The position numbers and the translations under genes are program-made. Below, in pieces: positions 25,723 through 30,850 of a stretch of 64,000 bases of DNA (the stretch's first letter is position 1; every line of letters starts with the position of its first letter). The DNA is from Streptomyces sp. NBC_01217 (GTDB taxonomy: Bacteria > Actinomycetota > Actinomycetes > Streptomycetales > Streptomycetaceae), in assembly GCF_035994185.1 (NCBI RefSeq), contig NZ_CP108538.1, forward strand, positions 2,542,001 to 2,606,000, written 5' to 3'. The notes under the pieces are model-generated. The model searched no databases and was not told where the DNA came from. It worked only from the letters and a program-made list of their open reading frames with translations.

Positions 25723-26889
25723 CTACGCTGCGGTCATCAGGGCCAGCAGGCGATCGTGGACCTCTGCGACAAGGGGTTCCTGTCGCCAGGGGCGCAGTTC
25801 GCGGGCGGCTCCGAAGACGATGTTCATACCTCCGCCGCCGCGCGTGGTCTCCAATTCGGCAATGGCCTCGGTGAGGCTGGCCACTGCGGCTTCGACCTCG
25901 CGTTGGCGGATGTGGGCGAGCGTAAGGTTCCCCAGCACGATCGCGCGTGACTTTCGCCTGTCCCGCAGCTTTTTGGCCGTGCTGGTCAGCAGGGTCTCGG
26001 CACGTCGGTGGTCTCCGAGGGAGAGATAACAGGAGCCGGCAAGGCGGCCGAACTGCGTCGGGGAGACGAGATCGGCCGCGGCGTCGCTTCCGTCTGCGCG
26101 GCCGAGTTGGCGTTCGGCGCGCGCGAGAGCACGTTCGCAGTCAGTGGTGGATCGCAGCATTGCGTGGGCCTCCGCGACGTGCAGGAGAGCCAGTCCGGAC
26201 AGAGCGGGGCTCGTCGGTGCGGCCGTTTCTGCTGCTCGACCGGCGAGCGCCAGGCCGACATGGGCGTCGCGGGCTCCGTACAGCGCGACGTAGCAGGTGC
26301 GCAGCAGGGCACGGGCTTCGAGCGTCGCGTCGCGCAGGTGGCGTGCGAGGCCCGCACTCTGCTCGTAGTAGGTCTTCGCAGTGGTGTGATCACGGCGCTG
26401 GGACGCGTCCCAGACGAGCTGACCCATCAGGGCGCAGGCCTCGGCATGCAGAACGTGGAGTTCCCTTTGGACACGTCCGCGCCCGGCGCCTGCGGCGACG
26501 TGGGCGATGCGGTTCAGTTGCCCCGCTGCCTCGGCGATGAGACTTGCGGAGGGCACGCGGTCGTAACGGTCCGCACAGTCGTCCAAGTGGGCGCGGAGTG
26601 TCGCGACGGCGGGGAGATCCACACGGCCTGGATGCAGCATCGCGTGGTCGAGGAAGTCCTGACCGTCGAGGTCGCCTGGCGACTTGGCAGTCAGCAGATC
26701 GTTCAGGCCCTCGGCGTCGACGCGGAGCAGGCGGGCGAGGCGGGGGCGCATCCACGGTTGTGGCGCCGTGCGGCCGGATTCCCAGCGGGTGACGGTGGAA
26801 CGGTCCACCTGCATATGTTCGGCGAGGGTCTCTTGGGTGAGGCCGACAGTACGGCGGCGCGCTGCCGGCCCGTTGCGATGATGCGCCAT
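25723..26889 (-). CDS. XRE-family regulator with TPR-like helical domain
   Basis: 388-residue regulator. Residues 10-65 are a Cro/C1-type helix-turn-helix (LTQETLAEHMQVDRSTVTRW, then ESGRTAPQPWMRPRLARLL). The rest is an all-helical TPR-like sensor of about 300 residues, as in large Streptomyces regulators that bind peptides or partner proteins. It is divergent from the ATPase gene that begins the peptide operon, across a 180-nt gap, and cotranscribed with the cyclo-ligase gene. Regulators of this type paired with small ATPase proteins are frequent beside Streptomyces peptide and development loci; control of the neighbouring operon is inferred. Confidence 0.88.
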   Translation of the reverse strand: MAHHRNGPAARRRTVGLTQETLAEHMQVDRSTVTRWESGRTAPQPWMRPRLARLLRVDAEGLNDLLTAKSPGDLDGQDFLDHAMLHPGRVDLPAVATLRAHLDDCADRYDRVPSASLIAEAAGQLNRIAHVAAGAGRGRVQRELHVLHAEACALMGQLVWDASQRRDHTTAKTYYEQSAGLARHLRDATLEARALLRTCYVALYGARDAHVGLALAGRAAETAAPTSPALSGLALLHVAEAHAMLRSTTDCERALARAERQLGRADGSDAAADLVSPTQFGRLAGSCYLSLGDHRRAETLLTSTAKKLRDRRKSRAIVLGNLTLAHIRQREVEAAVASLTEAIAELETTRGGGGMNIVFGAARELRPWRQEPLVAEVHDRLLALMTAA

Positions 26890-27069
26890 GGTGTCGGATC
26901 CCCCGGTTTCCCTTGTTCTGCACCGGACTTGCGACAGCGTGAGGTCCGAGGCGAGGCGCGGGTGTGACTCACGGATGCCGCATTGGTGCGTCCATTGTGC
27001 TCTGGGCGAGCCCTGCTTCGGGCGGTTGTGTGGAACTCCGACGCACGCAGCCAGGAAGGTTCGCCCTCC

Positions 27070-27603
27070 ATGCCGTACCGAACACCCGCCCTGAAGTCGT
27101 CAGTTCTCCGTGTCCCTTCGGACACCGCCGCTGTACCTGAGGCCCGTCGCCGGGTCGTGGCGGTCGTCCGCGGTTGGTGCCTGCCACTCGCGGAGGACAC
27201 CGTCGCGACGCTGGAGCTGCTCGCCGGTGAGGTCATCGCGAATGCGGTGCTGCACACACGGGAGAGCTGCCGGGTGACGGTGACCTGGGACGGCACCCGC
27301 GTCCGGCTGGAAGCCGAGGACGCGGTTCGGCGGCCCCTCCCGCTGCCCACATCGGCCCCGCCGGACGAAGAGGGCGGGCGAGGCCTGCAACTGGTCGCCG
27401 GCCTCGCGCAGGCTTGGGGATCCCGGCCGACGGCGTACGGGAAGTCGGTGTGGTTCGAGGTCGGCGACCCATCGTCTTCCTCGGCCCGAACGTCGCACAA
27501 CGACCACGGAGTCGAGCGCCGGTTCGAAGCCGCACACCAGTGGCTTCCTGGCGCCGGCCCGGTATGCAAGGCGCTCACCGGCTTCCTCCCCCAGACCGCC
27601 TGA
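27070..27603 (+). CDS. Anti-sigma-like ATP-binding protein (HATPase_c)
   Basis: 177-residue GHKL-type ATPase of the SpoIIAB/RsbW-like class so abundant in Streptomyces. N-box ELLAGEVIANAVLHT at about residues 56-70 and the lid/G2 region DEEGGRGLQLVAGLAQAWG at about 98-116 are visible; the G1 motif is degenerate (LEAEDAVRRPLP). The chosen ATG follows AGGAAGG; an upstream in-frame start lacks a site. It might bind a sigma or anti-anti-sigma factor, or serve the peptide locus. About 136 nt separate it from the peptide gene, so the operon downstream may have its own promoter. Confidence 0.85.
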   Translation: MPYRTPALKSSVLRVPSDTAAVPEARRRVVAVVRGWCLPLAEDTVATLELLAGEVIANAVLHTRESCRVTVTWDGTRVRLEAEDAVRRPLPLPTSAPPDEEGGRGLQLVAGLAQAWGSRPTAYGKSVWFEVGDPSSSSARTSHNDHGVERRFEAAHQWLPGAGPVCKALTGFLPQTA

Positions 27604-27739
27604 CTTCGGCACGAGTAAGCACTGAAGTCAGGCAATGGCGCTTCTCGCTGGGCCGATACGGCCTCCCAACAGCGGGACGCGCTGCCTCCAGGAAACGAGC
27701 GACCGGCTCGCTTCCACCCAAACAGAAAGAGAGACAGTC

Positions 27740-27883
27740 ATGTCCGAGCATGTCGTCACCGCCACCAGCGGTGAGAAGAGCGACGGTCTGCGGGTCGCCC
27801 GTCGCCGGATCGCCACCGCCCGTTCGCGGGCCGAGCAGCCCTCGGACGGCGGTTCTACCGGCCGTTCCGACGGCAACGACTGA
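27740..27883 (+). CDS. 47-aa Arg-rich peptide, candidate modification substrate or RiPP precursor
   Basis: Small protein starting MSEHVVTATSGEKSDGLRVA, with a central basic cluster (RVARRRIATARSRAEQ, seven Arg within 15 residues) and a Gly/Ser/Asp-rich tail ending GRSDGND. It has no Cys, no signal peptide and no hydrophobic helix. GAGAG lies upstream of the ATG and codon use is normal for the host. It is followed after 15 nt by a JmjC-type oxygenase gene, then a reductase and a phosphotransferase. Oxygenases of that fold hydroxylate Arg or His in ribosomal proteins, so the basic cluster is an attractive substrate. That role is my inference; no known precursor family is recognised. Confidence 0.65.
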   Translation: MSEHVVTATSGEKSDGLRVARRRIATARSRAEQPSDGGSTGRSDGND

Positions 27884-27898
27884 GAAGGGCCGCAACCG

Positions 27899-29083
27899 AT
27901 GACCACCGTCGTACCTCCGGTGGTCGCGCACCTGGGCGAGGACTTCCTCGCCCAGGTGTACGGCCGCACCTACCGCCACTTCCCGGGCGAGCCCGACCGC
28001 TTCGGCGGGCTCATCGGCTGGAGTGGCCTCAACGCCCTGCTCACCCACCACCGCCTCGAACCGCCCCGCCTGCGACTGTCCATCGACGGCGAAGCACTGC
28101 CACACCACGCCTACACCGTGCCTGTCACCACGCGGCGCAGCACTGTGTGGCACCGGCTCAAGCCCGCTGAGTTGCACCGACACCTCATCGAGGGCGCCAC
28201 CCTCGTCATTGACGCCATCGACGAACTGCACCCGGGCGTCGGCCGCCTCGCCCGGGAGCTGGAGCGACACCTGCGTACCGGTATCCAGGTCAATGCCTAC
28301 GCCTCCTGGACCCCCGAAGAGGGCTTTGGAGTCCACTGGGACGACCACGACGTGCTGGTCCTCCAGATCGACGGCGCCAAACGATGGCGCATCTACGGAC
28401 CCACGAGGCAAGCACCGCTCCACCGTGACACCGACGTGCCCGAACCGCCGCCGAACGAGCCGCTCGTCGAACTGGTCCTGCACGCGGGGGACATGCTCTA
28501 CCTGCCGCGCGGTTGGTGGCACGCCGTCGCCGCCTCGGAAGGCGTTCACTCCCTGCACCTCACGTGCGGCATGCAGACGACAACCGGCGCCGACCTGCTC
28601 CAGTGGCTGTCCGAGGACCTGCGCCGGGAGACACTCGTCCGAAGCGACCTGCCCCGCTTCGGCACCGAGGAGGAGAAGGCGGACTTCGTACGGTCGTTGA
28701 GCGATCTCGTTGTGAAGGAGTTCGGCGACAGCCATCTCATCGATCGCTACCTCGCCATGCGGGACGCGACCGAGCGAGCCAGGCTCACCCCATCCCTGCC
28801 GTATGTGGAGGGCGTACCGCCCGATCCCGCCCTCATGGTGCGGTTGGTGACCGCGCGGGCCCACCTGCGCACCGACAGCGAAGGCCAGTCGATCCTGGCG
28901 GCGGGTGGTGAGGAGTGGACCTTCGCCGCCCAGGCCGCGCCCCTGCTCGCCCTTCTCACAGAAGGCGGCGGGCACCGCTTGGACGCCCTCGCCGAAGTTG
29001 CCGGCATCAGCGTCGGTCAGGCCGCCCTCCTGGCGAGTGAGCTGGTCGACGGCGAGGTAGCGGCCGTGGATGTGGCCGGGTGA
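27899..29083 (+). CDS. JmjC/ribosomal-oxygenase-like (ROX) Fe(II)/2-oxoglutarate hydroxylase
   Basis: 394-residue protein with the architecture of YcfD/MINA53/NO66 ribosomal oxygenases. The JmjC core shows GVHWDDHDVLVLQIDGAKRW, with His146-x-Asp148 as iron ligands, and HAGDMLYLPRGWWHAV, with His208 as the third. The Lys/Trp after the first ligand match the ROX family. The C-terminal third resembles the dimerisation plus winged-helix part (GHRLDALAEVAGISVGQAALLASELV). Known relatives hydroxylate Arg (YcfD on L16) or His in ribosomal proteins. Its position 15 nt after an Arg-rich peptide gene and overlap with an aldo/keto reductase gene suggest a peptide substrate. Confidence 0.88.
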   Translation: MTTVVPPVVAHLGEDFLAQVYGRTYRHFPGEPDRFGGLIGWSGLNALLTHHRLEPPRLRLSIDGEALPHHAYTVPVTTRRSTVWHRLKPAELHRHLIEGATLVIDAIDELHPGVGRLARELERHLRTGIQVNAYASWTPEEGFGVHWDDHDVLVLQIDGAKRWRIYGPTRQAPLHRDTDVPEPPPNEPLVELVLHAGDMLYLPRGWWHAVAASEGVHSLHLTCGMQTTTGADLLQWLSEDLRRETLVRSDLPRFGTEEEKADFVRSLSDLVVKEFGDSHLIDRYLAMRDATERARLTPSLPYVEGVPPDPALMVRLVTARAHLRTDSEGQSILAAGGEEWTFAAQAAPLLALLTEGGGHRLDALAEVAGISVGQAALLASELVDGEVAAVDVAG

Positions 29084-29979
29084 ACGCGACGCTTGCTGCC
29101 GGTACCTATCGCTGCCGTGACATCGCCGGTGCTGTCTCCGCCGCGCTGGATGCCGGAGTCGAGTGGATCGACACGGCGCCGAACTACGCAAACGGCACGG
29201 CTGAGACTCGGTTGCGTCCGGTGCTCGCCGCTCGTCCGGGGCTCGGGGTGTCGACGAAGGTCGGCTTCGTGCCGCGCAGGGACTGGGAGGAGGCGGCGGC
29301 TGCCGGGGTTCTGCCGGGCAGCGGGGCCGACCGAGGACACTGTCTCAGCCGCTCGTACGTCGCCTGGCAGCTGGCTCGCAGCCGCATCCGTCTCGGTCGT
29401 GCCCCCGAGTTGGTCTTCGTACACAACCCTGAACACGCGGCCGTGGGGCGGGATTCGGTGCTGAGCGCTCTGACGGAGGTGTTCGGGGAACTGGAGTGCG
29501 CGGTGGACGCGGGCCTGACCAGCGGCTATGGGGTGGCCACCTGGACCGGGTTGTCGAGCGGTCTGCTGACCGTCTCCGATCTCACCGCTCTGGCGCAAAG
29601 GGCGGGCGGCCCCAGGCACCACTTCAAAGCTCTTCAGCTCCCGGTCTCCCTGGTCCACCTCGCCGGGGTGGCGGAGGCGCTCGATGGTGGCGGTCCCCTG
29701 CACGATGCGCGGGAGGCGGGCCTTCACGTGTTCGCCTCCGCACCGCTCGGAGGTGGTGACCTGCCTCGCCTCATGACACCCGAACTGGTCCAACTGATCG
29801 CGCCCTCCGCCTCAGCAGCTCAAGCCGCACTGATGGTCGCCCTCTCGGCTCCTGGGGTGTCACGCGTCCTGCTTTCGGCAAGCACTCGGGCACACTGGGC
29901 CGACGCTGAGAGTGCCGCCGCATGGGCACCCCTGCCGCACGAGCACCTGCGAAGGGCCATCGATGTTCTCGGAACCTGA
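29080..29979 (+). CDS. Aldo/keto reductase
   Basis: 299-residue NADPH-dependent oxidoreductase. The catalytic tetrad is readable as Asp31 and Tyr36 (IDTAPNYANG), Lys60 (VSTKVG) and His115 (VFVHNPEH). The C-terminal NADPH-binding strand VSRVLLSASTRAHW is near residue 277. The GTG start overlaps the oxygenase stop as GTGA, giving tight coupling. An aldehyde or ketone formed after hydroxylation of a peptide side chain would be a natural substrate, but this is inference; it may act on a small molecule. Confidence 0.86.
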   Translation: MNATLAAGTYRCRDIAGAVSAALDAGVEWIDTAPNYANGTAETRLRPVLAARPGLGVSTKVGFVPRRDWEEAAAAGVLPGSGADRGHCLSRSYVAWQLARSRIRLGRAPELVFVHNPEHAAVGRDSVLSALTEVFGELECAVDAGLTSGYGVATWTGLSSGLLTVSDLTALAQRAGGPRHHFKALQLPVSLVHLAGVAEALDGGGPLHDAREAGLHVFASAPLGGGDLPRLMTPELVQLIAPSASAAQAALMVALSAPGVSRVLLSASTRAHWADAESAAAWAPLPHEHLRRAIDVLGT

Positions 29980-30850
29980 CGATCCGGAGGTCGTCGCCCG
30001 CATGCGCACGGCCCACGCCGTGGCGGGCGGCGCCATCGGAGCGGTGCCCGAAGCCGGGGCCGTCGGCTCCCCGCGCGAAGCATGGGGGTGGCGTGGCCGC
30101 ACCTTGGGCAGGCCCGTCGCCGGACCGTACGGGCCGGGGTGGACGCGAGTCGTCCACAGCCCAGCCGACAAGGCTGGCGGGAAGCTGTGGACAGGCCCGG
30201 AGGACGCCGAACGGGCTCTGTCCCCGGAGATGCCCCGCCCGCACCTGCACCTCGTGCGGCAATGGACGGAAGACCGCGACGCGTACCGGGCGGAGCTGTA
30301 CGACCGCGTCGACACCGGGGCCGTCTCCTCCACCCCTGTCCTCGTGAAAGCGGCCGACCTCCCTGCTGCCTGGTGGAAGGAGTTGCGCAACGCCCTCGTG
30401 GGACTCACCCGTGTACGGACCAACCGTGTGGCCGTCCGCCAGGCATACCTGGACCGGGCCATGCCCACGTACCTGTCTTTCCTCGACGTACCGGTACCGA
30501 CGGTCCCGCCCGCCTGGTCCACGGCCCACGGAGACCTCCACTGGGCCAACCTCACCGCCCCGGACCTGTGCATCCTCGACTGGGAGGGCTGGGGCCTGGC
30601 CCCGGTGGGCTACGACGCCGCCCTGCTCCACGCATACAGCCTGAGCGTGCCCGAGACGGCCGAGCAGGTCCGCCGGGAGCTGTCGAACGTGCTCGACAGC
30701 GATGCCGGACGCTTCGCCGAACTGGTGGTCATCACAGAACTGCTGCAGAGCGCGCAGCGCGGAGACAACACCGAACTGGTCCCCGCGCTGCGCCAACGGG
30801 CCAAGGAGATCGCCCACCGGAGGCCGGCCGACAAGCCGACCGGTCGCTGA
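29963..30850 (+). CDS. APH/choline-kinase-like phosphotransferase
   Basis: 295-residue protein with a kinase-like C-lobe: HGDLHWANL at residues 189-197 (catalytic Asp191, Asn196) and ILDWEGWG (metal-binding Asp206). The N-lobe is present but divergent; VHSPADKAGGKLWTG may hold the ATP-binding Lys. Family members phosphorylate aminoglycosides, homoserine, choline or other small alcohols. The ATG overlaps the end of the reductase gene by 17 nt and follows GAAGGG. A hydroxylated product of the upstream oxygenase would be a fitting phospho-acceptor, or the gene may give self-protection; both are inferences. Confidence 0.82.
   Translation: MFSEPDDPEVVARMRTAHAVAGGAIGAVPEAGAVGSPREAWGWRGRTLGRPVAGPYGPGWTRVVHSPADKAGGKLWTGPEDAERALSPEMPRPHLHLVRQWTEDRDAYRAELYDRVDTGAVSSTPVLVKAADLPAAWWKELRNALVGLTRVRTNRVAVRQAYLDRAMPTYLSFLDVPVPTVPPAWSTAHGDLHWANLTAPDLCILDWEGWGLAPVGYDAALLHAYSLSVPETAEQVRRELSNVLDSDAGRFAELVVITELLQSAQRGDNTELVPALRQRAKEIAHRRPADKPTGR

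Follow-up and report, generated by a model that had tools for sequence, protein, structure and literature searches.

A JmjC oxygenase cassette with a candidate precursor peptide in Streptomyces sp. NBC_01217

The cassette and its genes

The locus described here lies in Streptomyces sp. NBC_01217 (genome of 9.03 Mb), within a stretch of 64,000 nucleotides (contig NZ_CP108538.1, positions 2,542,001 to 2,606,000) that is referred to below as the window. It is a cassette of four tightly packed genes encoding a small Arg-rich peptide, a JmjC oxygenase of the ROX type, an aldo/keto reductase (AKR) and an APH-like kinase (Table 1), which may together yield a ribosomally synthesized and post-translationally modified peptide (RiPP). 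A gap of 15 nucleotides separates the peptide gene from the JmjC gene, the GTG start of the AKR gene overlaps the JmjC stop, and the start of the APH gene overlaps the AKR gene. An original prediction, made from the DNA letters, had placed the four genes, their overlaps, this gap and the catalytic motifs, all of which were borne out by re-reading and by Pfam. It had also counted seven Arg within 15 residues of the peptide; the total is correct, but only six fall in the Arg-rich stretch (residues 18-30), the seventh, R42, being located in the C-terminal core.

Table 1. Features of the cassette and its upstream neighbours, in window coordinates
Feature	Coordinates	Strand	Basis
Precursor-like peptide, 47 aa	27740..27883	+	homologous small ORFs (open reading frames) and purifying selection
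Putative leader recognition motif GLRVARRRIATARSR, residues 16-30	27785..27829	+	conserved G-L, A-A and R columns; modelled beta strand 18-23
Core SDGGSTGRSDGND, residues 35-47, proposed modification site	27842..27880	+	conservation
JmjC (ROX-type) Fe(II)/2-oxoglutarate oxygenase, 394 aa, with C-terminal winged helix	27899..29083	+	
Oxygenase C-terminal winged-helix domain, predicted to bind the leader (RRE-like)	28823..29077	+	AlphaFold2 models
AKR, 299 aa, tetrad D31 Y36 K60 H115	29080..29979	+	PF00248 and conservation
APH-like kinase, 295 aa from ATG 29963 (alternative start GTG 29912)	29963..30850	+	PF01636, HGDLHWAN and DWE motifs
HATPase_c_2 (anti-sigma-like) gene, 5′ of the cassette	27070..27603	+	ATG 27070 taken as the start; frame open from position 26983
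XRE/TPR regulator (NsdA family), divergent	25723..26889	-	family match

The JmjC protein matches PF08007 (E 3.6e-30), and the residues of its HxD...H triad, H146, D148 and H208, are invariant in 110 aligned sequences. With its helical region and C-terminal winged helix it has the make-up of a ROX-type enzyme, and it can be matched over its whole length, winged helix included, to NO66, MINA53 and YcfD, at 15-22% identity to the solved structures. Residues 365-445 of the AlphaFold2 model form strands followed by three helices, the arrangement of a winged helix. The AKR belongs to its superfamily by a match to PF00248 (E 2e-14) and by the D-Y-K-H tetrad, which is invariant in 96 aligned sequences. 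The kinase scores just above the PF01636 threshold (E 2.5e-5; 24.6 bits against a cut-off of 23.2) and possesses the HGDxxxxN and D.E motifs of APH-like proteins. A filter on length and stops left 84 sequences from the 107 loci with an APH match; in these, H206, D208 and D223 are invariant and N213 and E225 are kept in at least 95% (numbering from GTG 29912).

The peptide gene and its linkage to the oxygenase

On sequence evidence, the 47-residue ORF is a real gene. Comparison was based on 110 JmjC loci, here termed clade A, of which 30 (one of them the window itself) came from a search of 392 same-genus genomes, where 150 genomes matched the JmjC query at E 1e-20, and 80 were named GTDB loci (the best 80 of 100); the set includes identical or near-identical strains, and its loci are not all independent. 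A homologous small ORF that fits the core motif at its C-terminus lies directly upstream of the JmjC gene in 107 of the 110, window included, so that the loss of the ORF upstream of orthologous oxygenases, which the original prediction had named as the outcome that would speak against it, was not what was found. The three loci without it are L099, L106 and L108, and remnants are visible in the first two. A protein database contains 36 matches to the peptide, from E 4.5e-21 (its own entry) to 2.6e-8, all of them unnamed, "hypothetical" or "uncharacterized". No family model covers the window peptide in Pfam or NCBIfam; the peptides of six relatives have none in NCBIfam, nor have three of those six in Pfam.

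The linkage also holds in the other direction. With the peptide as query, 49 matches were obtained in 46 of the 392 genomes, and 47 of these lie immediately before a JmjC match, sharing its strand and no more than about 210 nucleotides away (coordinates compared by eye). The two exceptions are an orphan in genome G308 and a copy in G306 where the oxygenase is interrupted, its first part following right after the peptide. The orphan (L200, 2057-2197), a peptide relative of 53% identity with no JmjC gene in the 6.5 kb examined, may be a relic or a stand-alone gene. When all six frames of the 80 named loci (1.14 Mb) were scanned for the core motif, it occurred 76 times, once each in 76 loci; 75 occurrences are inside the peptide ORF and one (L106) is in a remnant with a broken frame at the corresponding position. 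Eight close peptide sequences show synonymous differences (pS 0.106) and no nonsynonymous ones (pN 0) in residues 34-47, and residues 1-33 have a pN of 0.107; by this comparison the core is under purifying selection. A chance ORF or an upstream regulatory ORF was considered and rejected on the basis of the database matches, the 107 of 110 linkage, the pN of 0 in the core and the reverse linkage.

Clade-A peptides number 88 when at most 34 residues are kept before the core and only distinct sequences are counted, or 86 with a shorter trim. The strictest conservation is found in the C-terminal core, SDGGSTG[RKV][STG]DxND, and not in the Arg cluster. In the alignment of the 86, the core columns D, D, N and D are filled in every peptide and S and one G in 85, an invariance of D and N that is partly built in because the peptides were chosen with a motif holding some of those letters; the 107 of 110 figure, the tblastn matches and the database matches are supports that do not depend on this choice. 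The leader columns follow with G in 71, L in 85, A in 81, A in 78, R (the R28 column) in 84 and R (the R30 column) in 78. The Arg count per trimmed distinct peptide varies from 1 to 9, and Nocardiopsis has AVEDIAAVRSRAEQ at the cluster. Distinct cores are of 13 residues (79) or 12 residues (9). The position after the third Gly may be Arg (45), Lys (20) or Val (14) among the 79, so a core Arg is not required. The 13-residue cores are devoid of Phe and Tyr, and the window peptide has no Cys.

The association with the reductase and the kinase was likewise borne out by the locus counts, as expected of one conserved operon of four genes: the AKR was found in 96, the APH protein in 107 and both in 95 of the 110 loci. 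Nine AKR-less rows form one nested clade in an oxygenase tree of 91 rows (SH-aLRT 99; a quick tree, with long-branch warnings for some outside rows), and this nesting makes a single loss of the AKR probable. Gly fills both position 5 and position 9 in 10 cores, all of them from AKR-less loci, and the 13-residue cores of AKR-bearing loci have Ser or Thr at position 5 or 9 in 86 of 86, an association that counts as one event because the AKR-less loci are a single clade. Ser is present in AKR-less L092 and L097, which have odd-length oxygenase frames and speak against a strict rule; AKR-less L099 and L106 have no intact peptide.

The distribution of the cassette is patchy. About 49 of the 392 same-genus genomes, or some one in eight, have oxygenase matches of at least 44% identity over a long stretch (counted by eye), and the genera in the titles of the 80 named loci include Streptomyces, Kitasatospora, Streptacidiphilus, Actinomadura, Spirillospora, Actinocorallia and Nocardiopsis. 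The closest named loci are from Streptomyces, with 82-85% identity at the oxygenase.

Related clades and genomic surroundings

Weaker matches in the same 392 genomes gave 40 further loci (L111-L150). Of these, 24 (L121, L122, L124, L127, L129, L131-L135 and L137-L150) make up clade B, which has a distinct peptide, for example GLLVAVEELTAVHDRYDSLRSDNAGSSGDAPWPGGDGN. An AKR is present in 23 of the 24. An APH protein is present in 21, and in 18 of these 21 its gene lies on the opposite strand; for three loci the stretch fetched was too short to judge. The clade-B oxygenase is matched at E 1e-60 or better by 47 of the 392 genomes. The leaders of clades A and B are related by hhalign (probability 87 local, 42 global). 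Four other loci (L120, L123, L136 and L125) have other short peptides, such as FPEVEV...DFTQMFGDS and GLLRKVEKVQQAREQ, upstream of JmjC relatives and yielded no AKR or APH matches; in L125 an iron-box-like site is located at 385 (16 of 19 letters). The peptide of L119 is doubtful.

A class-wide search of 394 genomes, 100 of which had a match at E 1e-25, added loci L151-L177. Eleven of these (L151-L161) belong to clade A, and the core is found in 10 of them. A third clade, C, comprises 13 loci (L163-L175) from one other family and has an Asp-rich peptide, ...EVEVEDLAEVTSRDITAGGDSDGTDSSSDFI. In 10 of 10 enlarged loci it is preceded by a prolyl oligopeptidase-like gene and followed by a FhuF-like gene (assigned by Pfam in one member) with an iron-box-like site of 15 or 16 of 19 letters. 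No AKR or APH was found in the clade-C stretches searched. The leaders of clades B and C match weakly by hhalign (38 local, 1.4 global). Taken with L182-L191, the clade-C loci form a JmjC clade in which the peptide ...TAGGDSDGTDSSSDFI, the upstream prolyl oligopeptidase-like gene and the nearby FhuF-like gene with its iron-box-like site mark a candidate ribosomal metallophore.

The window cassette is flanked upstream by the XRE regulator, the HATPase gene and a 5-formyltetrahydrofolate (5-FTHF) cyclo-ligase-like gene, and downstream by a glutamine synthetase gene. The HATPase_c_2 gene and the XRE/TPR regulator are neighbours in close relatives, and the HATPase_c_2 gene is not a constant part of the cassette. 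An inverted repeat with 10-base arms, GCCTGACTTC (27598-27607 and 27624-27633), spans the end of the HATPase gene and precedes the peptide gene, where it could be an operator or a terminator. Around the cassette no promoter-like site was seen, and one terminator-like site was counted against a mean of 1.0 in shuffles. Rfam and tRNA scans of the window gave nothing.

Proposed modification, alternatives and known systems

Conservation, two-way linkage, catalytic residues, ROX architecture and the three clades with different peptides were computed directly; the hydroxylated residue, the roles of the kinase and the reductase, the removal of the leader and the role of the product are inferred. The preferred reading, held with moderate confidence, is that of a leader-guided RiPP-like cassette in which the oxygenase most likely hydroxylates core Asp or Asn and the kinase and reductase act afterwards. 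The peptide would be the precursor, its N-terminal half (GLxVAxxxIxxARxR) binding the oxygenase-fused winged helix as a leader binds a RiPP recognition element (RRE), and in this way the core SDGGSTGRSDGND would reach the Fe(II)/2-oxoglutarate site. There one or more of the invariant residues D36, D44, N46 and D47 would most likely be beta-hydroxylated; the APH-like kinase would then most likely phosphorylate the peptide, either on the new hydroxyl or on Ser/Thr, and the AKR would add another redox step, for which Ser/Thr at core position 5 or 9 may be needed. Asp and Asn are favoured because they are conserved, because all three clades have Asp-rich cores and because the residues known to be hydroxylated by JmjC-like enzymes span Asn, Asp, His, Lys and Arg (PMC7524897).

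As the original prediction proposed, the peptide is very probably the substrate of the oxygenase, because the two are tied together, and a RiPP-like system without a radical SAM enzyme or a cyclodehydratase is the best reading of the whole: a short gene-encoded precursor adjoins an enzyme with which it is co-conserved and by which it would be modified. Docking of the leader on the winged helix is predicted by AlphaFold2 models of peptide and oxygenase in cis, where leader residues 18-23 form a beta strand with modest confidence when the winged helix is present and lose it when the domain is deleted.

Several observations weigh against this reading, besides the selection effect on the core columns mentioned above. 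The core hardly varies, in contrast to most RiPP cores, and the leader Arg residues are conserved almost as well as those of the core. In the models the leader strand reaches a pLDDT of only 64-66 and the core is unplaced (pLDDT below 50); the two chains were joined in cis with the peptide in only 24 of 62 alignment rows, and the docking partner is deduced from the winged-helix deletion because the model output gives no contacts. Among the loci outside the first set of 110, 10 of the 40 (L111-L118, L128 and L130) have no convincing peptide, none was detected in L126, an AKR-less clade-A locus, the core is missing from L155, and no peptide was found in L162, L176 and L177. Homology of the A and C leaders was tried with hhalign and is unsupported (probability about 1). 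A phmmer search of the PDB gave no match for the AKR at E 0.001 and one chance-level match for the kinase (E 0.12). Finally, no constant protease or exporter was found near clade A in the 80 named loci, where the neighbour families were JmjC (76 loci), APH (62) and next one of only 14; the gene picker used was crude and misses real genes, since it did not recover the AKR as a separate family.

The target named in the original prediction was the Arg cluster, and this was demoted from main reading to rival on account of its variation, the core being constant. The cluster is part of the leader motif, and the Asp, Asn and Gly of the core are the most conserved residues. Hydroxylation of peptide Arg (leader R28 or R30), with AKR and kinase processing the hydroxy-Arg, is less favoured and, in our view, unlikely. 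The two columns are well kept in clade A, the displayed rows of clades B and C have an Arg at roughly the same position, YcfD, which acts on Arg of ribosomal protein L16, is among the structural matches, and BipG and PbsQ, discussed below, act on ornithine (Orn). Against this, R28 and R30 adjoin the segment modelled as a strand when the winged helix is present, the other Arg vary, and it is the core, unlike the leader, that is free of nonsynonymous change among close relatives. Distinctly unlikely is a kinase for self-protection: instead of taking part in the synthesis, the APH-like protein would shield the producer from an antibiotic derived from the peptide, or from a related toxin, by inactivating it inside the cell. 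PF01636 includes antibiotic kinases, and the clade-B kinase is mostly a separate unit on the other strand; yet the clade-A APH match is kept even where the AKR is absent, and the overlap of the window APH gene with the AKR gene fits a biosynthetic step equally well.

An improbable alternative is a metal-binding product, a ribosomal hydroxyaspartate metallophore whose conserved Asp would be converted to beta-hydroxyaspartates acting together as ligands for Fe(III) or another metal, with the kinase adding a phosphate ligand or mask. Three invariant Asp in the clade-A core, the Asp-rich cores of B and C and the FhuF-like gene and iron-box-like site of clade C are consistent with it. However, such a site is absent from the window and from 8 enlarged clade-B loci, clade A reaches at best 13 of 19 letters (in 9 of 110 loci), and in the clade-C loci viewed by eye the site adjoins the FhuF gene rather than the peptide; clade-C synteny is moreover not independent because the loci are from one family, and neither a receptor nor an exporter is a constant clade-A neighbour. 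The full ROX architecture and the tight spacing of the small ORF would also suit an oxygenase with ribosomal proteins as substrates, as for other ROX enzymes, preceded by a regulatory or translation-coupling ORF. This is highly improbable given a core conserved at the amino-acid level across genera with zero nonsynonymous changes, the two-way linkage, the different yet conserved peptides of clades B and C and the patchy distribution.

A broader proposal than the preferred reading is put forward only tentatively: a RiPP class not described before, whose ROX-type oxygenases, each with its own leader-binding winged helix, would serve at least three Asp-rich precursor families (SDGGSTGxSDxND, SD..GSSGD..GGDGN and GGDSDGTDSSSDFI), with hydroxy-Asp/Asn then phosphorylated by a dedicated kinase and core Ser/Thr altered by the AKR, giving a phospho-hydroxyaspartate peptide, possibly a metallophore. 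If so, it would suggest that the ROX winged helix and the RRE of RiPP enzymes share a use or an origin. With its AKR and APH-like kinase beside a JmjC oxygenase, the cassette is a compact, widespread and directly testable candidate system for peptide modification. Through it one can ask whether leader binding is the function of the ROX winged helix, and it is a starting point for finding ribosomal natural products still undescribed in genera that have been studied well.

The combination of peptide, JmjC, AKR and APH, which the original prediction did not recognize as a named class, was not found described in the literature, most subscription journals being outside the search. It differs from NO66, MINA53 and YcfD in that its oxygenase, at the low identity given above, is operon-linked to its own small peptide and is patchy within the genus. 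The cores of class V lanthipeptides contain Cys and Ser/Thr. They share with the cassette a PF01636 protein, in their case sprPT, which is assigned to a step of a RiPP pathway together with the HopA1-type sprH3 (PMC7794033). The cassette departs from them in a peptide lacking Cys and in its constant partners JmjC and AKR; by Pfam its enzymes are JmjC, AKR and APH, none being HopA1. For hydroxylation followed by phosphorylation there is a possible shared logic with calcium-dependent antibiotics, which contain hydroxy- and phospho-asparagine (PMC12473245). Those are nonribosomal, the cassette ribosomal, and the parallel is one of analogy and not homology. Their enzymes are AsnO and HasP, the hydroxylase being of another family.

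Closer are BipG and PbsQ (and the predicted BpmG), JmjC-type or cupin-like hydroxylases of biphenomycin-type RiPPs that, like the oxygenase proposed here, are encoded with a ribosomal precursor and hydroxylate a residue in it, in their case Orn (PMC12707348, PMC12257519). Biphenomycin-type clusters, as presented there, include an MNIO, a B12 radical SAM enzyme, an arginase and other partners acting on an aromatic Phe-Arg-Phe core, whereas the cassette has an AKR, an APH kinase and an Asp/Gly/Ser core that lacks Phe and Tyr, and no other general neighbour was found. The idea of a JmjC-RRE enzyme in RiPP synthesis is already in print: RRE-like folds fused to PF08007 JmjC proteins are reported from fish and algae, and the bacterial JmjC homologues nearest to them stand in RiPP-like contexts (PMC12710340). 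The cassette resembles these in joining PF08007 to a predicted RRE-like domain; the cited passage deals with proteins of fish and algae, and neither precursor sequences and clades nor an AKR or a kinase are given there.

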